NCBI GenBank assembly: GCA_017615125.1
Contig: JAGAAS010000094.1
Location: 1 to 37,774 of the forward strand
Length of the DNA: 37,774 nucleotides
Origin: Bacteroidaceae bacterium
GTDB taxonomy: Bacteria; Bacteroidota; Bacteroidia; Bacteroidales; Bacteroidaceae
Direction: 5' to 3'
The translations under genes were made by a program, and so were the position numbers. The notes below the pieces were generated by a model, which saw only the letters and a list, made by a program, of their open reading frames with translations, searched no databases and was not told the origin of the DNA. This document shows positions 5,124 to 22,941 of this stretch, piece by piece. How positions within the stretch are numbered: position 1 is the stretch's first letter; every line of letters begins with the position of its first letter.

Positions 5124-7670
5124 TTATTTGACTTCCCACTCATAAAGTCCGGAAGCAAAATGCTCAGGAAGGTCTATCTCCACTTTAAGTTTCTTCGTTG
5201 TAACGGGTTTGAAAGTGACAGTATTGGCAACAACCTTGCGTGTTCCATAGGGACTTGTGGCGCTTACGGGTTTCATTTCTCCGTTTTCATCTTCGTAATA
5301 GAGTCTCCATGCTTTAGGCACGCGGCATCCTCCCCAAGGACCATCGTCAAACCACCATATAGAGCTGCTCTTCACTGTAGAAGGCTTGGCGAATTCGTAG
5401 CAAATCCACTCAGTCGTTCCCTCCTTTGGCCACCAATGGAAATAAGGAATGGAATGATCATTTTCTACCGTAGGAGTCAGATGATCATTGATAGCGCTGT
5501 AACTTCCGCGATGACTGCCGGTAATAGTGCTGGTAGAGGCAAAAGTATCGGGCCACGTGGGTTTTGCCGCACTTACCTCAGCGGGAAGCCAAACGGCCAT
5601 ATTGCCTCTTCCACGATGAGCCCACGCATAATAAGGAATGAGATTGAGAGTAACGTCCTGCTCGTGCAGGTTCATCTTCTCGTCGTATCTAAGAGACTTA
5701 GCAGGAGTGGAAAGGCGAACAATAGGATAGGTTTGCTCCTTGCTTTCTTCGTCTTGATTGGCGGGAGTGGTTTTAATAGTAATGGTGCTTTCGTCGCATT
5801 TCCAATCCAACGCGTCTTTGTCAACAAGCGTGCTAAGTACGTTGAAGTCATTGTCGGGCCATTCGGCGCAATAAACGATAGGTCCGCGTTGCACAGCCAG
5901 TTTCCCTTTGTCTGCTTCCACTAAGTCATTGGCGCGAATAGCTCGCGGAACCATAACGAATTCTACGTTAACCACATCGCCTGCCTTCCAGTCGCGCTCA
6001 ACAGTAATATAACCATCTTGTGCAACATACCCCATACTTTTTCCTTTGTCGGTAGCTTTGAAGTTCAGCTCATAGCTTGAGCCATACTCGTCTTTTGGGC
6101 AAGATACATTTACTTTATAGGAATAATAGGTAGAGTCAGTGTTTACGAAAGAATAAAGGTCTGAAGGAACAGCGTCGGCGTGAGCCCATCCGGGGAAACG
6201 AATCTTTAGCGCAAACTTTCCAGCTTTGTTCTCGTTAATCTTTACAGATATTTTCCCATCCCAAGGATAGTCTGTCTCTTGAGCAAGTTCCACTTTCTTG
6301 CCGTTAACCTTTAGATTGACGGTACTTGTGTTAAAGAGATTGACGTAAACGTTGTTGTCGCGAACGGCATACATATATCCTGGCAAAGAAGGAATAAAAC
6401 GGCAGGCATTGCTGGGGCAGCAAGCGCATCCAAACCAAGGCTGACGTTGATGTTGCCCCATACTCTCCAAAGGATTGGGGTAGAAAAATCCTCCTCCGTC
6501 AAGACTGATGCCGCTGAGGACTCCATTATAAAGCGTGCGCTCCAGAACGTCGTAATACTTGCTTTCGCCGTGCAGCAAGAACAGTCTGTAGTTGACGTAA
6601 ACATTTCCAATAGCTGCGCATGTTTCGCAGTAAGCGCTCATGTTAGGCAGGTAATAGTTGGGCCCGAATGCTTCTCCGCTGCTCGTAGCACCGATACCGC
6701 CCGTTATGTAGTATTTCTTTCCAACGATATTCTCCCAAATGTTGTCAATCGCTTTCACATAGCTGCTGTCGCCAGTCAGAGCTGCTACGTCAGCCATTCC
6801 GGCATACATATAAGAAGCACGAACAGCATGCCCCACAGCTTCGTCTTGTTCGGTGACGGGTATATGCGACTGATTGTATTCATCTCGGTGCTCGGTACGT
6901 CCTCGTTTGTCGAGGAAGTATTTGGCTTGGTCTAAATATTTCTTGTCCCCTGTCGTAAGATACAGCTTTGCAAGGGCCATCTCGGCTATCTGATGCCCGG
7001 GAACGCGTGCAACTTGTCCTACGCTATCGCCTATTTCGCGGCAAACGCAGTCGGCATATCGGATAGCAAGGTTAAGGAAGTTGCGTTTTCCTGTTGCCTG
7101 ATAGTGTGCTATCGCTCCTTCTATCATATGGCCCAGGTTGTAGAATTCGTGGCTCAGGTCTTCCACTTTTTCCCAACGTTCTTTGCCTGCCCACTCGTGC
7201 GGTTGTTCCGGATTTTGCGTGCGGGCCGTATAAAGGTAGCCGTCTGGCTCCTGTGCTGCCGCCATCACGGCAATAACGCTGTCGATATAGGCTTTCATCT
7301 TTTTGTCAGGATAGGTCTGCAGCAGATAGCTGGCTCCCTCTATCGTTTTGTAAACGTCTGTGTCGTCGAAAGAATACCCTTCGACTTTGAGTCCGAGGTT
7401 TTCGGAACTTTTCAGTTGCTTGGCAGCTTTTGTAAAATTGGTGTAGCGCCCTTCGCTTTCACATTTACTGAAGGCAAGAGGAATGGTGACTTCGCGGGAA
7501 GCCTGCAGACGTTGTCCCCAGAATGTGTTAGGCGCCACTTTGACTGCGGTAAAGGGTACAGGAGTGATAGGATAACCGTCAACGGCGTTACCCAAGGTGT
7601 CAGCCTTTTTTGTGCAGCCTGCAAGAAGCAGGGCTGCGAGAAGGGAAAGAAATAGAATGTCTTTTTTCAT
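5124..7670 (-). CDS. GH127 (DUF1680) beta-L-arabinofuranosidase lipoprotein with C-terminal F5/8-type domain
   Basis: An 848-residue lipoprotein (lipobox LLAGC, Cys about 19) of the DUF1680/GH127 family. Characterised members are retaining beta-L-arabinofuranosidases using a cysteine nucleophile on a zinc site. All expected residues are visible: candidate acid/base E333 in GEAFG, zinc ligands E349 and C351 in YCETC, and C415, C417, C418 in GCACCPS, with C417 as nucleophile by comparison with HypBA1. After the (alpha/alpha)6 barrel and beta-sandwich parts, about residues 680-848 form an extra domain (SIWWFDDGPWGGCRVP) resembling an F5/8 or discoidin fold. No acidic export signal follows the lipid Cys, so it is probably periplasmic. 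It lies 86 bases downstream of the GH97 gene on the same strand, likely one operon. GH146, which shares the DUF1680 fold, is an alternative. Confidence 0.88.
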   Translation of the reverse strand: MKKDILFLSLLAALLLAGCTKKADTLGNAVDGYPITPVPFTAVKVAPNTFWGQRLQASREVTIPLAFSKCESEGRYTNFTKAAKQLKSSENLGLKVEGYSFDDTDVYKTIEGASYLLQTYPDKKMKAYIDSVIAVMAAAQEPDGYLYTARTQNPEQPHEWAGKERWEKVEDLSHEFYNLGHMIEGAIAHYQATGKRNFLNLAIRYADCVCREIGDSVGQVARVPGHQIAEMALAKLYLTTGDKKYLDQAKYFLDKRGRTEHRDEYNQSHIPVTEQDEAVGHAVRASYMYAGMADVAALTGDSSYVKAIDNIWENIVGKKYYITGGIGATSSGEAFGPNYYLPNMSAYCETCAAIGNVYVNYRLFLLHGESKYYDVLERTLYNGVLSGISLDGGGFFYPNPLESMGQHQRQPWFGCACCPSNACRFIPSLPGYMYAVRDNNVYVNLFNTSTVNLKVNGKKVELAQETDYPWDGKISVKINENKAGKFALKIRFPGWAHADAVPSDLYSFVNTDSTYYSYKVNVSCPKDEYGSSYELNFKATDKGKSMGYVAQDGYITVERDWKAGDVVNVEFVMVPRAIRANDLVEADKGKLAVQRGPIVYCAEWPDNDFNVLSTLVDKDALDWKCDESTITIKTTPANQDEESKEQTYPIVRLSTPAKSLRYDEKMNLHEQDVTLNLIPYYAWAHRGRGNMAVWLPAEVSAAKPTWPDTFASTSTITGSHRGSYSAINDHLTPTVENDHSIPYFHWWPKEGTTEWICYEFAKPSTVKSSSIWWFDDGPWGGCRVPKAWRLYYEDENGEMKPVSATSPYGTRKVVANTVTFKPVTTKKLKVEIDLPEHFASGLYEWEVK

Positions 7671-7756
7671 GATAGAAGATATTTGTTGGCTTAATCTTTT
7701 GCGAATATGTATGGAGTCGAAATTGGGTTTCTAACGTTGTGATTTTTTTTTTGAGT

Positions 7757-9820
7757 TTATTGTTGACGTATGAGTTTCATTACAAAACCGCCTCCTGACG
7801 CCATATGCTGGGAAAGAGTGCGTTTGTTGTTCAGCAGGTTGCTTTCGTCCTTGTAAACGTCTAACGTGTAATCTTCTGCATTTTTATCTGCATTGATGCC
7901 GTCTGAGAGCAGAATACACTTGTATTCCCCTTCGGGCAGGAAGGAGAGATTCATTTCTACATCACGAGCATTCCATCCGTTCAGTCCTCCTATATACCAG
8001 TCATTACCCAGCCGTCGGGCTGTGACAATGTATTCTCCCAGTTTGCCGCAAACGATACGCGTTTCGTCAAACACCGTTGGAATATCTGTAATGAAGCTGA
8101 CGTATTCAGGCTCGGGCTCATAGTTCGTAGGAGCATCGCAGAGCATCGTGAAAGGACTGTCGAAAACAACGTACATCGCTGCTTGATGGCAACGAGTCCC
8201 CTGACTGACAGGATTATAGTAGTTGGAGTGCCAATTGTTGTGCGTAGAATTTCGCATAGCTCCGGGTGTGAAATCTGACTGCCCGCACATCTGCCGGATA
8301 TAGGGGAAGGTGACGTCGTAGGTAACCATATCCTTGTCCTCAGGACCCCATTTCACGTCTTCCAATCCAAAGACGCCTTCGAAATTGAGGATATGGGGAT
8401 AGGTGCGGTTCAGGCCCTTGGGGGCATAGAAGCCGTGATAGTCGAGGAACAAATGATATTTAGCAGCTCTCTCGGCTATGCGGTATGCCATTTCCTGCGC
8501 CGTTTGGTCGTCTCGGTCGAGAAAATCAACTTTGAAGCCTTTGATGCCCATTTGAGAGTATTTTTGGCAGGCCTGCTCCAGTTGGTCGTCAAGAACATTG
8601 AACACGGTCCACAGCACAATGTCGACGTTTTTTTCTTTTGCGTAGCTTATCAACTCGGGCAGGTTCAGCTCGGGGATAACCGTCAGCATGTCGCCGCTGC
8701 TGGGTTCGTACCAGCCTTCGTCCAGCACGATGTATTCGATGTTGTTCTTCGAGGCAAAGTCAATGTAATACTTATAGGTGTCCATGTTGATTCCTGCCTT
8801 GAAGGGGACCCCTTTGAGGTTCCAGGCGTTCCACCAGTCCCACGCTACCTTGCCGGGCTTTATCCACGAAGTGTCGCCGATGCGGTTGGGGGAGGCGAGG
8901 TCGTAGACAAGGTTGTTGAGAGGCATCTGTGTGTCATCGTCGCTGATGGCAATGATGCGCCAAGGGAGCGAGCGCTTCCCTGATAGCTTGGCAATGTAGC
9001 GCTCAGTGTCAGTCACGTATAATTGCTGTCTCCGAGGATATTTGTCGAAGGCTTTTGGGTAGTGTGCGAAGACGGCATTCAGGGCGCTGCCGAGCTCTGC
9101 CGACACTTGATCGCTCTTTGTGGTTGGGGACTTGGCGCCTCCTGTTTTCAGCAAGAGTGTATGCTCTTTCTTGAGGAACATGCCTGGATAGGCCTCCAGA
9201 TCACTCTCGTGGAAGGTGAGCTTCGTCGAGCCGCAGTCGACAGTTACGGGCAGGAAGGAGGGAATGTCGCTGGCTTCGGAGAGAGGAGTCTTCGTGTAAG
9301 GGGCCTGAAAAGCCATCGCGAAAGGCTTTTTCTCGTTGGTGCTATACGACATCCATGCTGTCGGGTTGCCGAAGAAGCAGAACTGCGCCTGCTCGTTGGC
9401 AACGTTGACAGGAAGCCGCCCGCTGTAGTTGAAGCGGTATGCTACGCCGTCGTTGTAGGCGCGGAAGGTGACGCTGATGTAGGTTGTCAGCGCGAGGGTC
9501 ATCTCGTTGCAAGTCATTGCGATTTGTCTTTGGCGGTAGAAGGGTGCGTCGGTCTTCGAGGAAATCCTGCGGATGCGCGAGGCGCTGCTGACGCGCTTGG
9601 CTGTGGTTCCGTCGGTCAGCTTCAGCGAGATGGTCGACTTCTTGAGCACCGTAGCTCCGTTATGCTCGATGGTGAAGGCCAGCGGGCTCGGCATGATGTT
9701 GACTGTAGTCTTTCCGTCGGGCGACGTCAGGCTGTATTTCGTCGCTGCAGTTATCGGTTGAAGGTTGAAGAACAAAAGGCAGCAAACTGCAGAGAGAACG
9801 ACAAGTTTTGTTGTTTTCAT
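7757..9820 (-). CDS. GH97 glycoside hydrolase, probably retaining alpha-galactosidase type
   Basis: A 687-residue secreted enzyme of GH97, the SusB family, acting on alpha-glucosides or alpha-galactosides. I chose the ATG at 9820 because MKTTKLVVLSAVCC starts a normal signal peptide; an ATG eight codons upstream is less likely. The N-terminal beta-sandwich (about 25-270) is followed by a TIM barrel with VLDEGWY, GFKVDFLDRDDQ, LDYHGFYAPKG and a Glu-rich FEGVFGLEDVKW segment. In inverting SusB enzymes a glutamate base occupies the position after the His of the DYHG segment, while retaining members have Gly there and use the Asp of KVDF as nucleophile. This protein has Gly and Asp, pointing to the retaining alpha-galactosidase subgroup. 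That subtype call rests on remembered motifs. Confidence 0.9.
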   Translation of the reverse strand: MKTTKLVVLSAVCCLLFFNLQPITAATKYSLTSPDGKTTVNIMPSPLAFTIEHNGATVLKKSTISLKLTDGTTAKRVSSASRIRRISSKTDAPFYRQRQIAMTCNEMTLALTTYISVTFRAYNDGVAYRFNYSGRLPVNVANEQAQFCFFGNPTAWMSYSTNEKKPFAMAFQAPYTKTPLSEASDIPSFLPVTVDCGSTKLTFHESDLEAYPGMFLKKEHTLLLKTGGAKSPTTKSDQVSAELGSALNAVFAHYPKAFDKYPRRQQLYVTDTERYIAKLSGKRSLPWRIIAISDDDTQMPLNNLVYDLASPNRIGDTSWIKPGKVAWDWWNAWNLKGVPFKAGINMDTYKYYIDFASKNNIEYIVLDEGWYEPSSGDMLTVIPELNLPELISYAKEKNVDIVLWTVFNVLDDQLEQACQKYSQMGIKGFKVDFLDRDDQTAQEMAYRIAERAAKYHLFLDYHGFYAPKGLNRTYPHILNFEGVFGLEDVKWGPEDKDMVTYDVTFPYIRQMCGQSDFTPGAMRNSTHNNWHSNYYNPVSQGTRCHQAAMYVVFDSPFTMLCDAPTNYEPEPEYVSFITDIPTVFDETRIVCGKLGEYIVTARRLGNDWYIGGLNGWNARDVEMNLSFLPEGEYKCILLSDGINADKNAEDYTLDVYKDESNLLNNKRTLSQHMASGGGFVMKLIRQQ

Positions 9821-9841
9821 AAGGGGATTTTTTTCTATCTG

Positions 9842-9849
9842 CAAAGATA
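9842..9849 (-). promoter_or_regulatory. -7 promoter element of the GH97-GH127 operon
   Basis: The minus strand reads TATCTTTG, a perfect TAnnTTTG box, 21 bases upstream of the chosen GH97 start at 9820. The short leader supports that start, because the upstream ATG at 9844 would fall before the transcription start. Confidence 0.6.
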
Positions 9850-9867
9850 CTGCTTTTGCTTTTATTT

Positions 9868-9950
9868 TTTTCCTTCTCGAGAAAAAATTTTCCCTTCTTC
9901 AAAAATTTTTTTCCCTTCTCGAAAAAAAATTATTCCTTCTCCAAAATTCA
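9868..9950. repeat. AT-rich intergenic repeat, copy 2
   Basis: Four tandem imperfect units of about 20-22 bp beginning with (C)CCTTCTC or CCCTTCTTC (near 9872, 9892, 9913, 9935), each followed by a run of A then T. It lies between the divergent GH97 and susC-like genes and belongs to the same family as the blocks near 3.4, 15.3, 23.8 and 32.0 kb. Confidence 0.65.
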
Positions 9951-10062
9951 GTCTGCTGAAATGAGCCGTGAGAGAGGTTCGTAGGGCATATCATGAAAAG
10001 AGAATATTGGGACGAAAAGAGAATTTTTCTCCTTATTTATTTTATCAATCGAATTTTGTTGT

Positions 10063-10070
10063 TATCTTTG
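10063..10070 (+). promoter_or_regulatory. -7 promoter element of the susC-susD operon
   Basis: TATCTTTG matches the TAnnTTTG consensus, with a T-rich but non-consensus -33 region. It implies a leader of about 125 nt before the SusC ATG at 10203, long enough for post-transcriptional control. Confidence 0.55.
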
Positions 10071-10202
10071 CGCAGTATAAGTGTTCCTGCAGCCTGTCTT
10101 TGGAAAGCCGAGCGGGAAGACTTGCAAAACGAAGAAGAAGTACAAAGCCAGAATACACTAAAAATCATACATTATCTAACCATATTACAAATCAATTGTC
10201 CA

Positions 10203-13200
10203 ATGAAAGCACGAAGAATTCTTTCTCTGCTTGCCTTGCTGCTAAGCCTCTCGGTTGCAGTACAGGCGCAGACAACCGTTCGCGGTACCGTCGTGGACCA
10301 GAGCGGTGACGAGGTTATCGGCGCCAACGTCGTCGAAAAGGGCGTGCCCAACAACGGTGTCATTACCGACATCAACGGAGCATTCTCCTTCACGGTGAAA
10401 AACGCGCAGGCAACACTCGTTGTCTCCTACATCGGCTATGCAACCAAAGAAGTGTCGCTGGGAGGCAAGACAAACGTGAGAGTAGTCCTCGAGGAGGATA
10501 GCAAGATGCTCGGCGACGTAGTAGTTGTCGGCTACGGTACGATGAAGAAAGGCGACATCACGTCGGCTGTTGCAAGCGTGAAGCCCGAGGAGTTCAACAT
10601 CGGAAACATTCAGGATGCTGCCGAGCTCGTCAAGGGTAAGGTTGCCGGCTTGAACATCACCAAGGGCTCCGGAGACCCGAATGCTACGAGCACGATTCGT
10701 CTGCGTGGCGTCACCACCCTTCAGGGAGACCTTACGCCTCTCGTTCTCGTCGATGGAGTTCCTGGCGACATCACCGAGGTTGCTCCTGAGAACATTGCCT
10801 CTATCGATGTACTGAAGGACGCCTCAGCCGCAGCTATCTACGGAACACGCGGCGCAAACGGCGTCATCCTCATCACCACTCGGGGAGGACAGTTCAACGA
10901 GCATAAGAAGGTAACCTACTCGGGATATGTGAGCGCATCGAATTTCTACGATAATCTTCACTTTATGACAGCCGAAGACATTCGCAACATCAAGGGAGCT
11001 ACCGCCTTCAGCGACGAAGGCTTCACTACCGACTGGCTGGATGCCGTTACCCATACCGGGTTCGCACAGAATCACTCCATTACGATGGAGGGCGGCTCAG
11101 AAAATACGGCTTACGCTGCAGGATTCAGCTATCGTAACGAAGATGGTGTGATGATCAACACAGGAAACGAGCGTATGCGCATGCAGTTTGATGTGACGCA
11201 GAAAGCCCTCAACGGCATGCTGAAGTTTAACTTCAACGGAAACATCGGCTATTCGAAGAATCCGCAGAACAATCCTTCCTACGCCTATCGTCAGGCGGTG
11301 ATCCACAATCCCACTTCTCCTATTTATAATCTGGATGCAGACGGGAACCAGGATCCTTCGCTGGGCTACAACGAGGAGTTCAACCGCTTCCAGTATTACA
11401 ACCCTGTGGAAATCTTGAACGAGCAGATAGGCGACACCCGTTCCAACGACACCAAGATGACGGGAAACATTACCTTCGAGCCTATTCAGGGCTGGAAAAC
11501 AAACCTCATGCTTTCCACGTACCGCTATATGAGTGCGGGCGAGAACTACTATACGGCTAAGTACTACACACTTGCTCCTCAGAATTTGCCCGGTTCCACA
11601 GATCCCATTCTTGGCTCGGCATCCAAGTCGGAAAGCGACTACAGAAGCGACAATCTCGAAATAACCAGCGAGTACAAGAACACCTTTGGGGATCATCGTC
11701 TTGACGCTATTGTTGGTTACAGCTACAACTACAATATATCCAGTAGTTTTGGTGCAAACAACAGTAAGTTCCCCACCGAAGTTTATCTTTACAATAAACT
11801 GGAGGCTGGTGCTTTTGCAGAACTATTGTATAAAGACCCTGATGACAAAAGTACAGCATATTTGAAGAAGTACGGCGGAATGTCTTCTTATCGTGGCGAC
11901 GACAAACTGATAGGTTTCTTCGGACGTATCAGCTACGGATATGCCGATCGGTACAACGTGCTGCTCTCCATACGTCACGAAGGTTCTTCCAAGTTCGGTC
12001 AGGATAGGAAGTGGGGTAACTTCCCTTCGGCTTCGTTCGGCTGGACAATCAGCAACGAAGAATTTATGGAGAATGTGGATAAGATTTCGAATTTGAAACT
12101 TCGCGTGGGTTATGGAAAGACGGGTAACATCCCCGGGAGTTCCTACGGCTCGCTTACGGTATATGACTACGATACTTCCTATGGACGTTATCTCGACACC
12201 AGCGGGCAATGGACGGCAGGACTTGTAACAACCCAGAATCCTAATCCGAAACTCCAATGGGAAACAGCCGAAGAGGTTAACGTGGGCTTGGATATGGGAT
12301 TCTTCAAAGACAGGCTAAATATTACGGTTGATGCTTATCGAAAGGTAACCAACGACTTGCTCTACTATTACAACGTTCCTGTTCCGCCAAACATCTACAC
12401 AACAACGACTGCCAACGCGGCTCAGTTCCGTAACACGGGCGTTGAGTTGCTTGTTGAGGCAACTCCAGTCCGTACCAAGAAGTTCGAGTGGAACACGACT
12501 TTCACGGCTTCTCACAACAGCAGCCTTCTGGTAAGCCTTTCCAACGAACTTTATGAGACAGACAGTTATATGAACTGGGGCGGAGTAGGAGATCCTATTT
12601 CTGTCAGCACACACCGCATTGAGGAAGGAAAGTCGTTCGGAAACTTCTGGATGCTGAAGTCTGTTGGCGTCAACGAAAAAGGCAAGTGGGTGATTGAGAA
12701 TCCCAATGCTGTAACGGAAACAGCCGACGGTTGGCTTGACAAGGATGGAAACGCTGTTGACAAGTATATGGTTTACAGCACCGCCCTCAATAACGATGAG
12801 TATCGCCAATATTGCGGCACAGGTATGCCGCAACTCTATCTCAACTGGGGCAACAGCTTCCGTTACGGAAACTTCGACTTGGGAATCCAGATGAGCTCGC
12901 AGTTGGGATTCTATATCTTCAACTCGCAGCGTGCCTTCTACGAGAACAACTCTATCGCCTACAACCGTCTCTATGTGGCAGCTGTTGGTAAGCCTGTTGT
13001 TGATCTTGCCACAGGAAAGCCTACAGGCGAGTATGCCAAGCTGTCAACGGCTCAGCAGCAATGCGTCGTAAGCGCTTACCTGGAGCGGGGCGATTACGTG
13101 AAGATGGACAACATCACGTTGGGCTACACATACGACTTTAAGGGAGATGCCCGAAAATATATGCAAAGCGTGCGCGCTTATGTCTCGGGCGAGAACCTGT

Positions 13201-13343: not shown

Positions 13344-15227
13344 ATGAAAAAGATCAGATATTCTGTATTTGCAGTTCTTGCAGCTCTTGTTGCCTTCTTC
13401 GGCACTTCCTGCACAGACTTGAGCGAGACGGTTCATAGCAGTTTGACTGACGAAAACCTCGATTTTACCGATGAGGGCACGCTTGAGGCTATGTCTGCTT
13501 CGGTTTATTCCAATATCCGCTTCATGTATTGGGGCTATTACGGCTTGATGGACCTTACGGAGGAGGCTAGTGACCTTTATGTCATTCCTTCGAAGATAGG
13601 AATCGGCTGGGGCGACTATTACATCAGCTATCACAAGCACGAAGTAACCAGCGAGAATGCCAACATGCATTCTACCGACTGGTATTATAATTATGTAGCC
13701 ATTACCTATGCCAACCAGTTCTGTCGGGCTATGGATGGCGTGAAGGAGAAGCAAGGGGGAACGCTTACCGAAAGCCAGAACTTCATGCTGGCTAAGGTTC
13801 GCTGCCTGCGTGCCCTCAGCTACTATATCCTGTTTGACAACTTCCGCTGGATACCCCTCCTGACGGGAGCTGACGAGGAGCAGGAAGCAGGCTATCTTCC
13901 TGCACAAGCCAATCCTGACGAGGTGTTCGACTGGGTTGAAAAGGAACTACTTGCAATCCGCGACGACTTGGGAACGGCTCATGTCTTCGGGCATCCGAAC
14001 CGTTATGTGGCTGACATGATTCTTGCCAAGATGTATCTCAACCACAATGCCTGGTTCGAGAATATTATTACCGCCGACGAGTTGCGCGAAGGAAAGCAGA
14101 AGGGCGATTCCTACCGCAGCCGTATCTCCGATGAATGGTACAAGAAGTGCGAAACCGTCCTGAAGGATGTTATCGACAACGGAGACTATACGCTTGAGAA
14201 CAACTTCAAGGATAATTTTAAGGCTGACCTTAGCGGATGCAAAGAGTGCATCTTCGCTATTCCTCTCAGCATCGCCTATGCTTCGCATAACTACACTATT
14301 TGCGAAAGCCTCATCACGGCTGGAGCTGCTGCCTATGGTTTTTCCAACTCTTGCTGGAACGGTGGAGCAGGAATCCCGCAGTTTATCGACACATATCATC
14401 CCAATGATACCCGTTTCGACGACACGTGGGCTCATGATCAGCAATATGCATACACCGAAGCCGGAGGAGCCCAGTCGGGAGAGCCGCTTACGACAGCTGA
14501 AGCTGACTTGAAAGGTACGGTTAACGTCTTCTATACCAAGAATATCCATAGCGTGGATGACCCAGGAGTCTATATGCTCGAGGGTTACCGCAACGTGAAA
14601 CTCGAAATAGTTCCTGGAACTGCTGGAACTTGGGGCGATGACGTCAACTTCTTCCGTCTTGCCGATGCCTATATGATGGCTGCCGAGTGCGCCCTTCGTC
14701 TGGGTGGAAAGGGAACTTATTCTGAGTCGGATGCTGTTTCCTTTGTTAACAAGGTGCGTGCGCGCGCATTCCGCGGGCGTGACACAAAGACCTTCCAGGT
14801 TCCTGCCGATCCGGCTGCTGCCGTACGTACGTTGGCTGACTTGAAGGGAGGAAGCTGCTACAACTACGGGCACTCGGAGTATCATGTGGCTGACAACTAC
14901 GATCCTGCTAAGTTTACGGCTTATACCTGGGATGCGAAGTACTACGACGAGGGTCCTGCTGAGGATGCTCCTTTCCGAGGAGGTGCCGACATAGAACTGG
15001 GCGGATTGCTTGACGATCTGGCTTGGGAATTCGTGTTTGAGCATCATCGTCGTCAGGATCTCATCCGTTTCAAGATGAGTAATGGGCAGAATGTCTGGAA
15101 CGGAAAGTCCTGGTTCTGCAAAGATCGTGTGCAGGATGTTACAGACACCCACTACAACGCAGGCCCCATCTATGTGGAATACATGAATGGCAACAAGAAC
15201 CTCGTTCAGATGCCCGGATTTAATTGA
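13344..15227 (+). CDS. SusD-like surface glycan-binding lipoprotein
   Basis: A 627-residue SusD/RagB-family lipoprotein with a lipobox ending at C23 (FFGTSC) that caps the SusC transporter. Family signatures are the early TDLSETVHSSLTDENLDFTDEG, the helical repeat stretch with KVRCLRALSYYILFDNFRWIPLL, the segment DVNFFRLADAYMMAAECALRLGG, VNKVRARAF, and the C-terminal WEFVFEHHRRQDLIRF. It is longer than many SusD proteins (about 500-570), the extra length lying mainly in the loop-rich region around residues 340-440 and 490-560. It follows the SusC gene after 12 bases, so the two are co-translated or at least co-transcribed. Ligand is unknown. Confidence 0.95.
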   Translation: MKKIRYSVFAVLAALVAFFGTSCTDLSETVHSSLTDENLDFTDEGTLEAMSASVYSNIRFMYWGYYGLMDLTEEASDLYVIPSKIGIGWGDYYISYHKHEVTSENANMHSTDWYYNYVAITYANQFCRAMDGVKEKQGGTLTESQNFMLAKVRCLRALSYYILFDNFRWIPLLTGADEEQEAGYLPAQANPDEVFDWVEKELLAIRDDLGTAHVFGHPNRYVADMILAKMYLNHNAWFENIITADELREGKQKGDSYRSRISDEWYKKCETVLKDVIDNGDYTLENNFKDNFKADLSGCKECIFAIPLSIAYASHNYTICESLITAGAAAYGFSNSCWNGGAGIPQFIDTYHPNDTRFDDTWAHDQQYAYTEAGGAQSGEPLTTAEADLKGTVNVFYTKNIHSVDDPGVYMLEGYRNVKLEIVPGTAGTWGDDVNFFRLADAYMMAAECALRLGGKGTYSESDAVSFVNKVRARAFRGRDTKTFQVPADPAAAVRTLADLKGGSCYNYGHSEYHVADNYDPAKFTAYTWDAKYYDEGPAEDAPFRGGADIELGGLLDDLAWEFVFEHHRRQDLIRFKMSNGQNVWNGKSWFCKDRVQDVTDTHYNAGPIYVEYMNGNKNLVQMPGFN

Positions 15228-15325: not shown

Positions 15326-15389
15326 GAAAGAAAAAATCGAACTATTGAATACATTTTTGTTTAACTCTTAATCAACTAATTACGAAAGT

Positions 15390-16874
15390 ATGAAAAAGTA
15401 TTTGTATCTATTGTTGGCTATGGCCACTTTGACTGTGTTCTCGTGTAAAGAACCTGAACCCGAGCCACTTCCCGAACCCGAAGACGAGGCTTATGCCGAC
15501 TTCATCTTCCAGTACGAAGTGAACCTTCCTGCTGATGCTACCAGCTACAGCACCGTACCCCTCGACCTCGCTTCCGTGAAGGGCGTTAACTCCAAGGGTG
15601 AAAAGTATGACGTTTGGGAGTGCTTCGGCCTCGGCTCAGCATCTGAGCTGATTGCAGCTCTCGGAACCCTTTCAGGCGGAGCTCAAACGGGACAGACGGT
15701 AGACTTCATCGGCTTCGATGTATCGACTGAATATGTGGTTGAAACTCCTACCTCTACTAACGGCTGGGGCCATTGGCACATGGCCAACGGCGACATCTGC
15801 AATTGGGGCGATGATGCATACGTATTTGCAGAGGGATGGTTCACCGATACCCAAGATCTTGTGATCAATATCGGCCAGTTCCCCGGACGTCTGAAAGAGG
15901 GCGAAACCTACAAGATTATCGAAGGTATGCAGGACGACGAGAACACTGTAGCTTTCGAAATTACCATCAACGTTAAGCCCCAGACAGAATGGGCCGTTTA
16001 CAACACAACCAACGTAGAGGGCGAAGCTGTTGAATATGTATTCGATACAGAAGCCATCGCCAAACTTCTCGGCGTGAATAATCTGGCTAAGGCTGTTATC
16101 GACGGTACTGTAGTGCTGAAGCCCCGTAATGCCGACGGCTCGTACTTCGATCACTATTCGCAGGTTGACGATCCAGGCGCAAAGGGAGTCTTCCACAACA
16201 CCGCCGGCAACTGCTGCGAATGGCGGAACAATGAAGGTGCCGCAGATGAGTACTATGGTGACTTCTATAGCACCATCTACTTCTGGGAAGAGGGAGGCAA
16301 TCCTTACATCGAATTCTATCTGACTCCTTATGCTGCTACCGAGGATGACTTGGGATACTATGAGTTCAGCTGGGATCTCGTTAACGGCGACAAGGTGGCT
16401 ACCATCGTCTTCTGCACCGACCTTGAGTCGTCTCAGCCTTTCGCAAGCTATTCAGTTTACGGGTATAACTATACCGTAAAGATCGTTCCTAACGATGCAT
16501 ACAAGAGTATCGTTATTCCGATGCCGGAAACTTTAGCTGCAGACTTGGGCGTTGATGCTATTACGAAGGAAGCCCTTGAGGCTGGTACAATCTCTGTTAT
16601 CGGTTTGAATGCCGATGAATCGGAGTATACAGCAAAAGAGAAAACTGCAGGCGGTATTAGAGGCTGGTGGTACGATGTTGACGGCAACGTTCGCGAATGG
16701 GGCGAAGGTTGCTATGCTTTCGCTGAGTCAGACGATCTGCTCAACTATCGCGTAGGACTCTTCCCAGGTCTTGAGGTTGGCCAGACAGCAACATTGAAGT
16801 TCAAGTATGTTGCAGGCGAGAAGTCTCAAATCATTTCTGTATGGGTTACGACAGTAATGGAGATTGAAGAATAA
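15390..16874 (+). CDS. Lipoprotein with three DUF4859-like repeats
   Basis: A 494-residue lipoprotein (lipobox TVFSC, Cys 19). The residues after Cys are strongly acidic and proline-rich (KEPEPEPLPEPEDE), resembling the Bacteroidota surface-export signal, so it is probably on the cell surface. Three related modules of about 150 residues follow, each with an aromatic/Gly landmark: GHWHMANGDICNWGDDAYVF (about 126-145), FHNTAGNCCEWRNN (about 268-281) and GWWYDVDGNVREWGEGCYAF (about 430-449). The pattern matches what I recall of DUF4859, found in Bacteroidota surface proteins next to glycan enzymes. By position after SusD it is a candidate surface glycan-binding protein. Function unproven. Confidence 0.75.
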   Translation: MKKYLYLLLAMATLTVFSCKEPEPEPLPEPEDEAYADFIFQYEVNLPADATSYSTVPLDLASVKGVNSKGEKYDVWECFGLGSASELIAALGTLSGGAQTGQTVDFIGFDVSTEYVVETPTSTNGWGHWHMANGDICNWGDDAYVFAEGWFTDTQDLVINIGQFPGRLKEGETYKIIEGMQDDENTVAFEITINVKPQTEWAVYNTTNVEGEAVEYVFDTEAIAKLLGVNNLAKAVIDGTVVLKPRNADGSYFDHYSQVDDPGAKGVFHNTAGNCCEWRNNEGAADEYYGDFYSTIYFWEEGGNPYIEFYLTPYAATEDDLGYYEFSWDLVNGDKVATIVFCTDLESSQPFASYSVYGYNYTVKIVPNDAYKSIVIPMPETLAADLGVDAITKEALEAGTISVIGLNADESEYTAKEKTAGGIRGWWYDVDGNVREWGEGCYAFAESDDLLNYRVGLFPGLEVGQTATLKFKYVAGEKSQIISVWVTTVMEIEE

Positions 16875-16892
16875 TCCGCAGCTAACTTTCAC

Positions 16893-16976: not shown

Positions 16977-16998
16977 ATAACATTAGTAACATGTAACA

Positions 16999-18720
16999 AT
17001 GAAGAAATCGAAACAACTTCTTTTCCCGCTATCGGTTTTGTTTCTCACAACATTCCTTATAGCGTGCACTCCCGAGGAAATAGATCCTTTGGCTGACTAC
17101 GACGACTCTGTGAAGGCAACTCTTACCGTTAATCGTGACTCATACGAGGCGGAATGTGACTCTTGCCGCTTCATTGTGCGTATCAAATCCACGTATATGT
17201 GGAAGATAGAGATTCCCGAAGAAGCCTCGTGGCTCACATGCTCGGATCTCTGGGGTGACTCGCTTGTGAATAAGAAGGTTTACTTCCATCTCGAAGCCAA
17301 CACGACTGAAAAGGATCGCTCGACAATTGTTACCATCCGCTCGGGGAAGGCAAAAAAAAGGATTGTCGTAAGTCAGCGCCGACAGGTGAGAATCCTCGAC
17401 AAGGGAAGCGTTGACGTCAGCCGCATCTATATCCCGCAGGAACTCCGCACCAACGACTTTTATAAGAGCTCGAGCACGTGGTACTTCGGGCGAAGCCGAC
17501 AATCGGAGCATTTCATCGTCTTTTGGCAAGATGGGGAGAACTGGGATGAGTACGGCGAAAAGACGCCTTTCGATTCGCCCAACGCTGCCTTCCGCGTCGA
17601 CATTGACGACTTGCTGAAGAAGGCGGAACAGTTCTATCAGATTAATGTGGAGGAGCTGAAGTTTGCCGAAACGGGAGTGGGGAAGTCAACCCTCGACAAG
17701 TATAAGATGATGATAATGCTCAACTACCAGACGGATTGGCTAGCGACAGGAGCAGGCTACGATAATGTGATTGGAGCCCTTTGGGTAAGTCCCAATACGT
17801 GCCAGCCAGTAGGTTCAACTATCGCGCACGAGATTGGGCACACTTTCCAGTATCAGGTTTACTGCGATTATCTCCTTCAAGGCGGTACGGATAACAGCAA
17901 GGGTCCAGGCTGGCGCTTCGGGTTCGGCTCAAATGGTTCAGGAGGAAACGCATTTTGGGAGCAGACAGCCCAATGGCAGTCCTTCCAGCCTTATCCAGGA
18001 GAAATCTTTACGAACTATAACTTTCAGGGATATCTTGATGGATCTCACTTGCACATCTTCCACGAAGATCCGCGCTACTGCAATTACTTCATCCATTGGT
18101 ATTTCACACATCGCTACGGCATAGAAGAAGTTGCCCGACTGTGGAAGGAATGCCGCTATCCCGAAGACCCAGCCGAGACGTACAAGCGTATTCACGGGCT
18201 TACCACTGAGCAGTTGAACGACGATTTGTTCGACTATGCGCGTCGTATGGTGACTTGGGATGTAGATGCTTTGCGCACGCGTGGGAAGAATTATATAGGT
18301 AAGCACACTTGGGCCTTTACTCGCGACGGTGAATACTATAAGGTAAAGAGTTCGAAATGTCCCGAAAGTACGGGTTATAACGTAATAACTCTTTCCGTTC
18401 CTGCTGCAGTAACAACGGTGACTGCCGATTTCAGGGGCATCACTTCCGATAGCGGATATAATATCGTTAAGCCCGAAAATGCTGGCTGGCGATATGGCTT
18501 TGTCGCCTATTGTTCCAACGGTACGCGTGCGTACAGCGATATTTTCTCGGAGAAGGAGGGAACGGCCACGATAACTATCCCCGACAATTGCTCCAAGCTG
18601 TGGTTTGTCGTTTCGGGAGCACCTATCGTCTATGAGCGTCATGCGTGGGACGACAACAATGCAAACGATCCTCAATGGCCCTACGAAGTGAAGTTTACAG
18701 GAGCATCTGTGAAACAATAA
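16999..18720 (+). CDS. BACON-domain zincin-like metallopeptidase lipoprotein
   Basis: A 573-residue lipoprotein (lipobox LIAC, followed by acidic TPEEIDPLAD, suggesting surface exposure). Residues about 35-130 form a BACON-type Ig domain (WKIEIPEEASWLTCS, ending VVSQRRQ). The rest is a putative zinc peptidase with H277-E278-I-G-H281 in AHEIGHTFQYQ and a possible third ligand E321 in FWEQTAQW, 39 residues on. HExGHxxQ resembles the M60-like gluzincin signature, but overall the protein looks more like a DUF6055-type family, a tentative name from memory. A beta domain follows near ESTGYNVITLSVP. It is clearly paralogous to the gene at 21472 (shared DKYxMMxMxNY, GALWVxPN, AHExGHxFQ). Peptidase activity is inferred from the motif only. 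Confidence 0.75.
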   Translation: MKKSKQLLFPLSVLFLTTFLIACTPEEIDPLADYDDSVKATLTVNRDSYEAECDSCRFIVRIKSTYMWKIEIPEEASWLTCSDLWGDSLVNKKVYFHLEANTTEKDRSTIVTIRSGKAKKRIVVSQRRQVRILDKGSVDVSRIYIPQELRTNDFYKSSSTWYFGRSRQSEHFIVFWQDGENWDEYGEKTPFDSPNAAFRVDIDDLLKKAEQFYQINVEELKFAETGVGKSTLDKYKMMIMLNYQTDWLATGAGYDNVIGALWVSPNTCQPVGSTIAHEIGHTFQYQVYCDYLLQGGTDNSKGPGWRFGFGSNGSGGNAFWEQTAQWQSFQPYPGEIFTNYNFQGYLDGSHLHIFHEDPRYCNYFIHWYFTHRYGIEEVARLWKECRYPEDPAETYKRIHGLTTEQLNDDLFDYARRMVTWDVDALRTRGKNYIGKHTWAFTRDGEYYKVKSSKCPESTGYNVITLSVPAAVTTVTADFRGITSDSGYNIVKPENAGWRYGFVAYCSNGTRAYSDIFSEKEGTATITIPDNCSKLWFVVSGAPIVYERHAWDDNNANDPQWPYEVKFTGASVKQ

Positions 18721-18730
18721 AAAAGAAAAA

Positions 18731-20344
18731 ATGAGACAAAAGAAATTCTTGCTATTCATTCAGGTCACATGCGCCTTACTTCTCTTTGCATGCACGCAAG
18801 AAAATGTGGAAGAAGGCATGCTTGACCTTGTGGCTCAGTCGGGAGAGTATTTCACCGAGTGGCCTAAGTACAGCCCTACAATTCACTACGATTTCAATAA
18901 GGAAAACGGGCAACTCCCTGTTCCAACGAAGAATCTGCCTTTGTCGGCAAGCAAATACTATAAGGTATATCCTGCTGCAGATGATACCGAAACGGAAAGC
19001 TGGTGGTCTTTCTTTGTTGGCAAAAAGGCGAACCCGCTCGTAAAAGATAATGAAGTTGCTGCACGCAATATGCTGAAGCGCCTGAACGAGGATTTTGCCT
19101 ACATGACCGATGTGATGGGCTGGCCTCGCGATCTAGGACCTCAAAAAGGCTACCGCAGCGCCGTATTTCTCTTTGGCTCGGGACTTCCAACGGACAACGC
19201 TTCGAATACAGACCTTGGCGGTTGGCAAAGTGCCATAACGCTAAACGGAACAACGTGGCCTATCATCCTTGCATCGTATTATCCTGTTTATTGCTTCGAT
19301 CCCGCTTGCGGATATAGCGATGCCGAATCGCAATGCAGCGCTATGGTTCATGAAGGAATCCATGCAATTTTCGCTTCAATGCCAGGTTGCCGAAAGGCAA
19401 GCTGGTTCCACGAGGGAGCCAACTGTTGGCTGCAGGCAACCCTCACGTATGAGCGTCAGTATGGAAAAGAGTACACGGCAAATGATTTCGGCTGGCTCAC
19501 AATGGGAAGCGCGATGGCTCCTTTTATGCCGATTGAGTGTTATTCCGGCTGGCTTACGGATGGAACGTTCGGCGGACCAGGAGCACAAGGAGTAAATGGC
19601 GCTTCTCCTACAGGAAACGTGCGGAAAGTCATCGGCGGCGTGCAATATAGTGAGATGTTTCCCACGTTCCTTGGAGAAATCGTCGATTATATGGCTGTTC
19701 CTTGGGTTTGGATGAATGCTACCGGATATGTGCTCGAAGGAATTGCCGAGCAGATAGGAAAAGCTCAGATGGAGCGGATGATTCAGGAATACCGCGCAAG
19801 ACTTTGTCTGTGCGACTTTGGTAAATACTCGTCGGCTGTCAAGCATCTGTACAACACGTATATGGGATATATAGTGGAGTCGGAAAGCTGGAGCGTATAC
19901 AGCAAACCTTGGCGTGCTACCCCTTATGCAGCCACCGAGGAAGATGAAGAAGGCTGGCTTGTTCCTGATCAAGAAACCACTCCTGGTTGGACTGGGGCAA
20001 ACATTATTCCTATCATCGTTGACAGCAGTCCTTTAACTGTATCTTTCAAGCCTAACGGGAAACTTTCAACGGAAGAGAATATGTCGTGTCAGCTCTGCTA
20101 CCGCACGGAAGATGGAGAGACTGTCTACGGCGAACCTTTCCATTCTGGTAGCTATCGAATGGATTTCAGTAAATACAAGCCTGCCAATAACGTGGTGTTT
20201 GCTGTTGTGTGCAATTTGGACTATGAGTATACTCCGAACCCAAACATTCGTCGTAACCATTATGACTATCGGCTGAAGTTGAGTAGCAACGCTCACCCAG
20301 CAAACGTCTATGGTAAATGGTTCAATTGGGATGTGGAACAATAA
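18731..20344 (+). CDS. Putative zincin-like lipoprotein (HExxH)
   Basis: A 537-residue lipoprotein (lipobox LLFAC; acidic TQENVEEGM after Cys, so probably surface-exposed). It carries H207-E208-G-I-H211 in MVHEGIHAIFA and, 16 residues later, E228 in WFHEGANCW, a layout that fits a zinc gluzincin. The order of motifs resembles the neighbouring zincins, but the sequence is much more divergent, lacking HExGHxxQ and the DKYxMM signature. A C-terminal beta-rich part (about 440-537, LTVSFKPNGKLS...) may be an Ig-like module. It starts 10 bases after the preceding stop, so it is in the same operon. Substrate unknown; an inactive binding protein is also possible. Confidence 0.65.
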   Translation: MRQKKFLLFIQVTCALLLFACTQENVEEGMLDLVAQSGEYFTEWPKYSPTIHYDFNKENGQLPVPTKNLPLSASKYYKVYPAADDTETESWWSFFVGKKANPLVKDNEVAARNMLKRLNEDFAYMTDVMGWPRDLGPQKGYRSAVFLFGSGLPTDNASNTDLGGWQSAITLNGTTWPIILASYYPVYCFDPACGYSDAESQCSAMVHEGIHAIFASMPGCRKASWFHEGANCWLQATLTYERQYGKEYTANDFGWLTMGSAMAPFMPIECYSGWLTDGTFGGPGAQGVNGASPTGNVRKVIGGVQYSEMFPTFLGEIVDYMAVPWVWMNATGYVLEGIAEQIGKAQMERMIQEYRARLCLCDFGKYSSAVKHLYNTYMGYIVESESWSVYSKPWRATPYAATEEDEEGWLVPDQETTPGWTGANIIPIIVDSSPLTVSFKPNGKLSTEENMSCQLCYRTEDGETVYGEPFHSGSYRMDFSKYKPANNVVFAVVCNLDYEYTPNPNIRRNHYDYRLKLSSNAHPANVYGKWFNWDVEQ

Positions 20345-20371
20345 AAAGAGAATAAATTGAATATTGATTTC

Positions 20372-21400
20372 ATGAAAAGACACGTTGCTTTATTTTCTGC
20401 TTTTGCAGCTGTAATTCTTTTTGTTGCTTGCCAGCAAGACGACTATATCCCTTTCGGTCCGGAACAGATTGACTATTCGCAGGCCAAGCAGGGAAAAACT
20501 ATTGAAATGATAGAAGAGATGGAGTTAAAGGAAGCTTTTGGAACAACTGCCTTCACAATTCCACGCAACAACGTTCTTAGTGCATTTGGCGTGAAGAAGC
20601 TGCCCGAAGACCTTACCTTCTTTGGAGTGGACAAAAAAGGTAATCGACTCTGTGGGTCTCGTTATTTCACATCGACGTCTGGTTTCTATTTTGATAAAGA
20701 CGGTTTCGCATGCTCACCTGCCAGCAAAGACGCGTGCGTGTTTGTTGACTTTACTCCTTCGACACTAAAACTCGTTGTGGGACAAGTTCCCGAAGCCTGC
20801 AAGGCAGGCGAAACCTACACGCTCCACATGGGTTTGACAACGTCTTCTGTATACTGTCCCATTGACCTTATGCTGACAATTGCTACTGCGGGCGAATGGG
20901 CCGTGTATTTCAAACACAGCGACGGGCTCACTTACACTGTCTTAGAGACTGTGAAGACCGATTATACCTCGTTGCCTGTCTATATTGATGAAGAGGCTCT
21001 TTGCGGCGCACTAGGTCTTTCTTCTTTTGCCAAGCTAATTGAAGGAATGAAAGCCTCAAAGCCTACCGTAATGTTCTACGGGCTCAATGCAGATGGTTCG
21101 GAATATCTTATTTCTGCAGAAGACGGTTCTTCCCCGCAAGCTGGTTATACGGCAAACAATAAGGGTCATTGGTTCGACAACAATGGTAACGTATGCAAGT
21201 GGAAGGATTCAGGATGGTTTTGCTTTAGCGAGTGGGACGGCTCGTCGAATCCCATATTCTTTAACATAGGGCAGGCTACAACGGGTGTTGAGCCAGGAAT
21301 GTCTGCAACAATCCGCCAGAAATTCGTTCATGGCGACAAGGAGGCCGTTATCACGTTCAAAGTCGAAATCGTTAATAAGATTTTGGAGATCAACGAGTAG
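20372..21400 (+). CDS. Lipoprotein with two DUF4859-like repeats
   Basis: A 342-residue lipoprotein (lipobox FVAC followed by QQDDY, which fits an acidic surface-export signal). I chose the ATG at 20372, since MKRHVALFSAFAAVILFVAC makes a proper lipoprotein signal; the frame opens 15 bases earlier only from a TTG. Two modules are visible, with landmarks GFYFDKDGFACSPASKDACVF and GHWFDNNGNVCKWKDSGWF, the second clearly related to the repeats of the protein at 15390. It sits 27 bases after the zincin stop codon. It is likely a paralogous, shorter surface binding protein of the same system. No catalytic motif is seen. Confidence 0.7.
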   Translation: MKRHVALFSAFAAVILFVACQQDDYIPFGPEQIDYSQAKQGKTIEMIEEMELKEAFGTTAFTIPRNNVLSAFGVKKLPEDLTFFGVDKKGNRLCGSRYFTSTSGFYFDKDGFACSPASKDACVFVDFTPSTLKLVVGQVPEACKAGETYTLHMGLTTSSVYCPIDLMLTIATAGEWAVYFKHSDGLTYTVLETVKTDYTSLPVYIDEEALCGALGLSSFAKLIEGMKASKPTVMFYGLNADGSEYLISAEDGSSPQAGYTANNKGHWFDNNGNVCKWKDSGWFCFSEWDGSSNPIFFNIGQATTGVEPGMSATIRQKFVHGDKEAVITFKVEIVNKILEINE

Positions 21401-21471
21401 CAGATGCTCTTACAGTCAGATTGACTGACGGGGATAATACATATTAGTTTTTGAGGAAAACATATACGATT

Positions 21472-22941
21472 ATGAAAAAGACATATTTCGTTATCCTCCT
21501 GACAACCATAATATTTGCGTTGTCTGCATGCACGCATCAAAAAGGGAAATCGGTGTATATCCCTGAAGACTTGCGAGATTACTTCTGTGGCGTTACGGAA
21601 GTGCCTGACGACTCCATCCGCACGTTTGACAAGACGCATGCGCTACTTCCCGATACTGCGCGGTGGAGTTTCAGCCGTTGCCGATTGACAGACAACTTTG
21701 CCGTTTTCTGGGAACGCGGCTTTGGAAACGATATTTCCAAAGCACCTGAGCTTGACGGTCATCCTATGTGCGTAGACCTTGATAATCTGTGTAGTAAGCT
21801 TGAGTCTTTTTACGACTATTATTACCACACCCTGCAATTCGTACACCCAGGCTCACTTTGCGACAAATACCGCATGATGGTGATGATAAACTACTCACTT
21901 GAAGGCACTGCCTACGGGGGAGACTACGATGGCGTCATTGGAGCTCTTTGGGTAGCGCCGAACAGAATACAGGACAAATCGCTTAACTGTATAGCCCACG
22001 AGCTTGGGCATTGTTTCCAAAGTCAAATCATGTGTGATGGGACAGGAGAAGCCTGGGGCGGCTCAGGATTCTTCGAGATGACATCTCAATGGATGCTTTG
22101 GCAGGTTAATCCCGACTGGATAGGCTCGGAAAAGTATCATTGGGACGCCTTTTGTAAGCTTACGCACAAAGCTTTCCTCGACGGAGCGAACATCTATCAC
22201 TCGCCCTACGTGATAGAGTATTGGAGCATGAAACGAGGACTCATGTCCATCGGTGACCTGTATCGTGCAGGCAAGAGAGGCGATGACCCCGTTATCACTT
22301 ACAAAGAGCTCTACGGGCTTTCTCAATCCCAATTCTGCGACGAAATGTACGAAGCCGTTGCTCATACAGTCAACTTGGACTATCCTCGATGCTGGGAGCT
22401 GACGCGTCCATACGCTTGTCAGATGGCTGCGTCGATGGATGCTCTTGACTCAGGCGCGCTGGTTCCTTCTGCAGACAACATTCCCGAAAACTACGGCTAC
22501 AACGTGATAAACTTCACTGTTCCGATTGAAGGCAAAAAACTTGAGGTTCACCTGAAGGCGTTGCCGGCTCTGGCTACTCGTATGCGGGGAGGATGGTTCA
22601 GTCCGTCGCATCAAGAAAGTTCCGACGATGCTCAACAGCCCGAGCTGCGTGAGCCGGGAGAATTCCGTTTCGGATTTGTAGCTGTAGCTGACGACGGGAC
22701 TACCGTCTATGGGCCTATGCAAAGTGGCAGTGAAGGCTCGGTAACATATACGGGCGACGGAAAGACGCAGAAGCTTTTCTTGGTAGTGATGGCTGCCCCC
22801 AAAGAGCATTCCGCGCCATTTAGAAGAATGATACCTGTAGAGGATACTTCCGACGATACCGTACCGACAATACCTTCTGATCATTTCCGTCCTGCTCCCA
22901 GATACGAGATGCAGTATCCCTACGAGATTACTTTCTCATAA
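21472..22941 (+). CDS. Zincin-like metallopeptidase lipoprotein, paralogue of the BACON zincin
   Basis: A 489-residue lipoprotein (ATG at 21472 gives MKKTYFVILLTTIIFALSAC; an in-frame TTG seven codons upstream is rejected). It lacks a BACON domain but otherwise matches the protein at 16999: H176-E177-L-G-H180 in AHELGHCFQSQ, candidate third ligand E202 in FFEMTSQW, plus CDKYRMMVMINY, DGVIGALWVAPN and ENYGYNVINFTVP. The spacer between H180 and E202 is 21 residues, against 39 in the paralogue, which carries an inserted Gly-rich loop. Residues after the lipid Cys (THQKGKS) are basic, so unlike the other members it is more likely periplasmic. Last gene of the operon, 30 bases from a convergent gene with no terminator visible. 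Confidence 0.75.
   Translation: MKKTYFVILLTTIIFALSACTHQKGKSVYIPEDLRDYFCGVTEVPDDSIRTFDKTHALLPDTARWSFSRCRLTDNFAVFWERGFGNDISKAPELDGHPMCVDLDNLCSKLESFYDYYYHTLQFVHPGSLCDKYRMMVMINYSLEGTAYGGDYDGVIGALWVAPNRIQDKSLNCIAHELGHCFQSQIMCDGTGEAWGGSGFFEMTSQWMLWQVNPDWIGSEKYHWDAFCKLTHKAFLDGANIYHSPYVIEYWSMKRGLMSIGDLYRAGKRGDDPVITYKELYGLSQSQFCDEMYEAVAHTVNLDYPRCWELTRPYACQMAASMDALDSGALVPSADNIPENYGYNVINFTVPIEGKKLEVHLKALPALATRMRGGWFSPSHQESSDDAQQPELREPGEFRFGFVAVADDGTTVYGPMQSGSEGSVTYTGDGKTQKLFLVVMAAPKEHSAPFRRMIPVEDTSDDTVPTIPSDHFRPAPRYEMQYPYEITFS

Follow-up and report, generated by a model that had tools for sequence, protein, structure and literature searches.

We analysed a DNA stretch of 37,774 nucleotides (the window), which is one whole contig (JAGAAS010000094.1) of the 107-contig, 3.03 Mb, 87% complete assembly GCA_017615125.1 of a Bacteroidaceae bacterium. 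At positions 5124–22941 it carries a gene cluster, in which GH127 and GH97 genes on the minus strand are divergent from the genes for SusC, SusD, a DUF4859 protein, a BACON-DUF6055 protein, a further HExxH protein, a second DUF4859 protein and a second DUF6055 protein. With a probability of about two in three, this is a SusCD-type utilisation locus for extensin-type hydroxyproline-rich glycoproteins (HRGPs). The genes and their motifs, one protein fold, the homologies and the gene linkage are observed, and from them we infer the activities, the surface location and the substrate. According to excerpts of two papers (PMC9266454, PMC6085000), extensin consists of Ser-Hyp4 repeats that form a rod, in which serine bears alpha-galactose and hydroxyproline one to four mostly beta-linked arabinofuranoses. 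We rank extensin-type HRGPs first because each of these bonds has a matching enzyme in the locus or its relatives, the peptidases suit the backbone, and the hydroxyproline operon suits the product. An earlier note on this DNA had suggested an extensin-like substrate. The suggestion is supported by homology to the peptidase Svx, by a gluzincin-type fold and by recurrent linkage to GH127, GH43, alpha-galactosidase, prolyl peptidase and hydroxyproline genes, and we retain it as a prediction.

The HExxH motif occurs in exactly three of the 17 window proteins checked. Two of these are DUF6055 proteins, the only two found in the assembly at its stated completeness, and the third (18731–20344) is probably their distant relative. 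All 26 aligned DUF6055 proteins share the residues H, E, G and H as well as an E and a Q further downstream, and HEGIH is likewise invariant in all seven aligned members of the third family; because of this invariance, the motifs are not due to chance. The third protein matches PF19527 with E=0.016 and 14.6 bits, under the gathering score of 27. Its family aligns with DUF6055 by hhalign (E 9e-5, probability 59) with the HExxH in register; the spacing to the Glu is 16 residues, and there is no Svx match. Relatives of this protein were found in 6 of 79 DUF6055 loci from named genomes and also in the same-genus loci L058, L060, L061 and L066, although they were sought only in DUF6055 loci, so that the co-location is partly by construction.

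Svx is a gluzincin peptidase of plant pathogens, which was reported in 2026 to cleave carrot extensin. All 26 DUF6055 proteins tested match the Svx model NF040510 far below its cut-off, the best with 4.6e-21. For the two window proteins the scores are 67.7 and 61 bits, where the cut-off is 625, and the protein of the open reading frame (ORF) 21451–22941 reaches 8.8e-17. The HExxH-Glu spacing is X21 in the latter, inside the X(8-28) quoted for Svx-type gluzincins, but X39 in the protein at 16999–18720, although all 26 aligned DUF6055 proteins have this Glu. The earlier note had counted a non-zinc fold for all three HExxH proteins against its reading; the single protein modelled with AlphaFold2, a DUF6055 protein, has a gluzincin-type fold. 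Foldseek alone gave mostly matches to the BACON/Ig part, and neither DUF6055 nor the third HExxH family had a significant match in PDB sequence searches. Of 24 aligned DUF6055 proteins, 14 also contain DUF4859 as a fusion. In a FastTree tree of 186 domains the label was clustered, with 33 changes against 61.5 after shuffling, and long branches were flagged.

The gluzincin-type HEXXH fold, the BACON domain and the ruminant-gut origin of close relatives would also suit a locus for animal or other mucin-like glycoproteins, in which DUF6055 is analogous to the M60 mucin glycopeptidases. However, the nine locus proteins gave no PF13402-type (M60) match at E <= 1, and no hexosaminidase, sialidase or fucosidase was found among the 19 window proteins scanned. 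Many carriers are named as marine or soil genera. Mucin was among the test proteins of Svx, and the abstract of that paper states that such controls were not degraded (PMC13164431, excerpt). Thus, a mucin-like substrate is very improbable.

Profile searches and a motif check confirmed the gene content named in the earlier note, namely SusCD, GH97, GH127, two DUF4859 lipoproteins and three HExxH lipoproteins (Table 1); the note had not identified DUF6055. The GH127 protein matches its family profile and carries the expected Glu and Cys residues in ETC (349–351) and CACC (415–418), which, as in HypBA1, would provide the zinc ligands and the nucleophile. Its best solved relative is 6ex6 (949 bits). 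The GH97 protein had been read as a retaining alpha-galactosidase, and this assignment held: it scores 802.5 bits against the cut-off of 800 on the NCBIfam 'retaining alpha-galactosidase' model NF053844 and keeps Asp 440 in KVDFLDR, aligned with 3a24, where the 5e1q chain has Gly. We take this Asp to be the nucleophile. The SusC and SusD genes are adjacent, with 12 bases between them. Lipobox-like signal sequences, read by eye, are present in the three HExxH proteins, both DUF4859 proteins, SusD and GH127. We propose that the DUF4859 lipoprotein at 15390–16874, in a SusE-like position, binds glycans.

Table 1. Genes of the cluster and possible satellite genes in the window
Feature	Positions	Strand	Basis and remarks
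GH127 beta-L-arabinofuranosidase-type lipoprotein, weak C-terminal F5/8 C domain	5124..7670	-	PF07944 1.7e-123; ETC and CACC motifs
GH97, retaining alpha-galactosidase type	7757..9820	-	ORF to 9844, likely start 9820; PF10566 7.7e-100; NF053844
SusC/RagA TonB-dependent transporter	10203..13331	+	TIGR04056 719.7 bits; ORF from 9993, likely start set by match to relative in L034
SusD-like binding lipoprotein	13344..15227	+	PF07980 1.3e-18
DUF4859 lipoprotein, two DUF4859 stretches	15390..16874	+	PF16151 9.8e-26
BACON + DUF6055 lipoprotein, HEIGH at residue 277, Glu 321	16999..18720	+	DUF6055 515.6 bits
Divergent HExxH lipoprotein, HEGIH at 207, Glu 228	18731..20344	+	hhalign against DUF6055
Second DUF4859 lipoprotein, two stretches	20372..21400	+	ORF from 20357, start inferred; PF16151 5.1e-29
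Second DUF6055 lipoprotein, HELGH-21 residues-Glu	21472..22941	+	ORF from 21451; PF19527 2.8e-120, 402.5 bits
Possible satellite: GH59-like enzyme and second GH127-like enzyme	27580..31872	+	Pfam
Possible satellite: GH2 beta-galactosidase (LacZ-like)	50..3241	+	Pfam

We compared the gene neighbourhoods of DUF6055 in relatives. Of 201 genomes in the window's family, 88 carry DUF6055; from the matches listed, we selected and read 70 DUF6055 loci of this family. Twenty of them have SusC/SusD-like genes. As controls we used 32 SusD loci from seven DUF6055-bearing genomes, six of which are among the genomes of these 20 loci. GH127 was found in 8/20 DUF6055 loci with Sus genes and in 1/32 controls, alpha-galactosidase in 7/20 and 3/32, DUF4859 in 9/20 and 0/32, and prolyl peptidase in 4/20 and 0/32; GH43 of at least 300 bits was found in 4/20 and 0/32, and at any score in 4/20 and 4/32. 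These counts come from single-sequence phmmer queries, which miss distant members, with several loci coming from one genus and statistics that ignore phylogeny; the Fisher values are descriptive. The fullest gene order, GH127-SusCD-(DUF4859)-DUF6055-GH97-GH43-GH127-DPPIV, occurs in L036 with its flank L123 and in L107, and, with some unrelated ORFs between, in L039 with L128 and L129. The same-genus genome G030 (L127 and L034) has LacZ, GH127, GH97, SusCD, DUF4859, three DUF6055, GH59 and a second GH127-type gene in the same order as the window, without the third HExxH gene.

The set of genes also recurs across Bacteroidota, where the earlier note had proposed to look for it. The 79 loci from named genomes, taken from the best 80 of 498 relatives and partly shared with the family sample, include 62 with Sus genes, 49 with DUF4859, 39 with GH127, 18 with GH43, 15 with proline-type peptidases and 9 with alpha-galactosidase. 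The order SusC-SusD-DUF4859-DUF6055 is found in 34 loci, and 28 combine two or more of the following: GH127, alpha-galactosidase, GH43, prolyl peptidase and epimerase. Judged by title, the carriers comprise rumen and other gut metagenome-assembled genomes as well as soil or marine genera. Among relatives the alpha-galactosidase belongs to different families (GH97, GH27, GH36), yet the set of activities is kept, which speaks for selection on the activity. In Sinomicrobium pectinilyticum (L189), genes for L-arabinose isomerase, an FGGY kinase and GH51-like enzymes lie beside DUF6055, and in S. oceani (L190) the L-arabinose isomerase gene does. HTCS regulator genes adjoin the relative L038 and, by similarity to L038, also L036 and L121.

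Linkage to hydroxyproline catabolism was assessed in a distant family (f6), in those nine genomes whose DUF6055 match is strong (at least 376 bits). Each has one gene of the epimerase family PF05544, which in six of the nine (three of six genera) lies on the same contig, 6–26 kb from DUF6055; G683 and G846, with DUF6055 of 33–34 bits and PF05544 on other contigs, were dropped beforehand (6/11 with them), as were f6 genomes with DUF6055 matches below cut-off. Since 157 of 299 f6 genomes have the epimerase, its presence alone is weak evidence, and it is the physical linkage that counts. In G648 (L135–L137) the order is DUF6055-GH97-GH43-pyrroline-2-carboxylate reductase-like-DUF5695-DUF885-GH127-DPPIV, followed by M24-DAO-type dehydrogenase-4-hydroxyproline epimerase-ALDH-DapA family-AraC-like-GH127-DUF6055. 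The L114 epimerase passes NF010578 (591, cut-off 376), and a gene of L097 passes the pyrroline-2-carboxylate reductase model NF004793 (379, cut-off 322). For the ALDH, DapA-like and DadA-like genes the NCBIfam matches stay below the cut-offs, and the putative pathway roles of these genes are taken from established hydroxyproline catabolism. The dehydrogenase is present in 7 of 8 linked operons; the G541 DNA examined stops at the epimerase. In Galbibacter sp. EGI 63066 (L195) and Salegentibacter salinarum (L209) the epimerase lies about 4 kb from DUF6055.

As a control for this linkage we used eight operons, out of 20 initially sought, from DUF6055-negative genomes, each in 15 kb of DNA reaching about 7 kb each way. 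Within this distance GH127 was found in 5/8 linked and 0/8 control operons and prolyl-type peptidases in 8/8 and 2/8, while GH43, alpha-galactosidase and DUF5695 were absent from both, so that GH127 and prolyl peptidases alone distinguish the two groups. One of the eight controls, L252, has a SusCD pair close to this type (1007 and 542 bits) directly beside the hydroxyproline operon; therefore, the transporter itself may mark hydroxyproline-rich substrates.

Several observations weigh against extensin as the substrate. The nearby GH2 and GH59 genes are not accounted for by extensin, and GH127 and alpha-galactosidase serve arabinogalactan proteins and pectins too. The window DUF6055 proteins lack the extensin-recognising C-terminal acyltransferase-like domain of Svx, which is needed for extensin cleavage by Pba Svx; in the 573-residue protein the Svx match ends at residue 570, that is, at profile position 445 of 601 (an excerpt of PMC9266454 gives the limits of the Svx peptidase domain as 43–445). 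In the protein at 16999–18720 the HExxH-Glu spacing is X39, outside the range quoted for Svx-type gluzincins. No GH43, prolyl peptidase or hydroxyproline gene lies next to the window cluster, nor does a dedicated regulator, since no HTCS, sigma/anti-sigma or AraC protein was found among the 19 window proteins scanned; the genome has one AraA gene, three DPPIV_N matches and 27 GH43 matches, all outside the window. The operon control is silent on GH43 and alpha-galactosidase, which in the linked clusters lie 12–19 kb from the epimerase, beyond its reach, and neither was found in L195 or L209 within the DNA examined. The epimerase is unlinked in three of the nine f6 genomes and in both genomes of family f3. 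PF05544 was above cut-off in none of 21 genomes of the window's family, its own included; therefore, the organism may live on the sugars alone or deal with hydroxyproline by a different route.

The association with SusCD also has limits. No SusCD match was found in 50 of the 70 family loci, some of which are cut by contig ends, with Sus genes sought only by similarity to the window pair. Of these 50 loci, 3 carry GH127, 6 alpha-galactosidase, 2 GH43 and 9 prolyl-peptidase matches. Thus, DUF6055 as a whole is not extensin-specific, and the idea that every DUF6055 gene marks the system was rejected. In addition, GH127 and alpha-galactosidase accompany SusCD in the control locus L141 (G163). This may be one half of a split locus, the other half being the DUF6055 locus L038 of the same genome, which has no SusCD in the 20 kb read.

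The substrate could instead be an arabinogalactan protein, or a different Hyp-rich glycoprotein whose glycans are mixed. On it GH127 would trim beta-L-arabinofuranose tips and GH97 alpha-galactose caps, while GH2 and GH59 would attack the beta-galactans. The GH2 (50–3241) and GH59 (27580–29790) genes flank the locus, related genes hold the same places in G030, a GH2 beta-galactosidase lies within the L209 cluster, and linkage to hydroxyproline genes suits any HRGP. However, among the unlabelled neighbours (48 of 59 proteins, from 28 relative loci) only CotH exceeds two occurrences (10/48); alpha-rhamnosidase, pectinesterase, alpha-L-fucosidase and GH95 are each represented by a single protein, and the 25 of 58 neighbour families shown include no galactanase or lyase. 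The characterised relative of the peptidase cuts extensin. We therefore regard this alternative as unlikely, though it is the strongest of those considered.

An ordinary locus for pectin or arabinan side chains, with accessory or non-catalytic HExxH lipoproteins, is less probable still. GH127-family enzymes do act in pectin degradation, the solved relatives include an entry named rhamnogalacturonan lyase, and the GH43 matches elsewhere in the genome would fit such a substrate. Against this, there are two or three peptidase relatives per locus with an invariant HExGH...E...Q, relatives carry prolyl peptidases and hydroxyproline catabolism, and no pectinase was found among the 19 window proteins scanned.

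Under the extensin reading, the surface lipoproteins (SusD, DUF4859 and BACON-DUF6055) would bind the arabinosylated Ser-Hyp4 rod, and the gluzincin-type DUF6055 peptidases, perhaps together with the divergent HExxH protein, would cleave the backbone where it is glycosylated, in the manner of Svx. The glycopeptides would be taken up by SusCD. GH127 would then free beta-L-arabinofuranose from hydroxyproline and GH97 alpha-galactose from serine, while the outer arabinose may be removed by an alpha-L-arabinofuranosidase encoded elsewhere. The arabinose would then be used, which is consistent with the AraA gene of the host genome. In relatives the predicted set would be complete in place, with GH43, proline-specific peptidases and, in some, hydroxyproline catabolism.

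The proposed system resembles several known ones. It shares with Svx/AvrXca of Pectobacterium, Dickeya and Xanthomonas (NF040510) a homologous HExxH...E peptidase domain, and the reported target of Svx is extensin; in contrast, the window proteins, at 61–68 bits on that model and without the C-terminal domain, are lipoproteins of a SusCD locus with BACON or DUF4859 domains. Like HypBA1/HypBA2/HypAA (GH127, GH121, GH43) of Bifidobacterium longum and Xanthomonas euvesicatoria, it has GH127, and in relatives GH43, for Hyp-linked arabinose. Unlike that system, it has no GH121 among the 19 window proteins scanned, uses SusCD transport and adds an alpha-galactosidase and metallopeptidases, to which relatives add prolyl peptidases and hydroxyproline catabolism. 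SusCD, surface lipoproteins, glycosidases and, in relatives, an HTCS regulator are common to Bacteroidota polysaccharide utilisation loci, but here the locus is centred on peptidases, and in some relatives it is combined with an operon for amino-acid catabolism. In Latescibacteria HRGP degradation was likewise predicted from GH127 read as acting on extensin; in the excerpt of that paper (PMC4454575) it was inferred from single enzymes, and no peptidase-SusCD locus or hydroxyproline operon is described. Excerpts of PMC6085000 and PMC7263609 place the known Hyp-arabinoside enzymes in Bifidobacterium and Xanthomonas. A single open-access paper was found to name DUF6055, for a fungal M106 peptidase of unknown function. 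We found no mention of DUF4859 in the open-access literature and no description of a Bacteroidota extensin locus in open-access titles and opening abstracts, a search outside which subscription papers and preprints lay.

Several neighbouring features deserve mention. A WG-repeat lipoprotein-like protein (24118–25008) follows the window locus, and a by-eye comparison shows a similar-looking ORF at the same position in G030. The GH59 gene (galactocerebrosidase-type) lies directly before the distant GH127-like gene (27580–31872); the pair is also present in G030, and this placement of GH59 seems unusual. A CotH-kinase-family protein is encoded next to or between DUF6055 genes (L220:11881-13185, L244:12362-13660, L249:12095-13456, L178:12190-13929), and in L178 it is fused to DUF4859. 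DUF5695 is found beside DUF6055 in 11 of the 79 named-genome loci (e.g. L094:14951-17641, L136, L189, L190, L233) and in six f6 hydroxyproline-linked clusters, and may be a further enzyme of the system. A 779-residue ORF beside DUF6055 (L134:10702-13041) matches both EutB and EutC, the large and small subunits of ethanolamine ammonia-lyase, and is apparently a natural fusion. In G177 (L035:6144-8865) the GH97 region is divided between ORFs of 221 and 700 residues, in place of the single 906-residue ORF of G032, and the gene may be disrupted or mis-sequenced. In L133 (9580-14926) Cas1 and a 1479-residue Cas9-type gene (HNH, RuvC_III, bridge-helix) lie just past the DUF6055 gene.

On the extensin reading, the locus would belong to a widespread and apparently undescribed class. 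We incline slightly towards the view that such loci form an undescribed phylum-wide class, through which Bacteroidota would use extensin as a source of both sugar and amino acid by means of Svx-like DUF6055 glycopeptidases, arabinoside-binding DUF4859 in the role of the Svx acyltransferase-like domain, SusCD, GH127, GH43 and alpha-galactosidases, prolyl peptidases and a hydroxyproline operon; the divergent HExxH proteins would be a further peptidase family. Extensins are cross-linked structural proteins of the plant wall, and their recycling by gut and environmental bacteria is largely unknown. The linkage offers names and testable functions for DUF6055, DUF4859 and a further HExxH family, links bacterial nutrition with a peptidase of plant virulence, and allows a prediction as to the cultured Bacteroidota that would grow on extensin and hydroxyproline.

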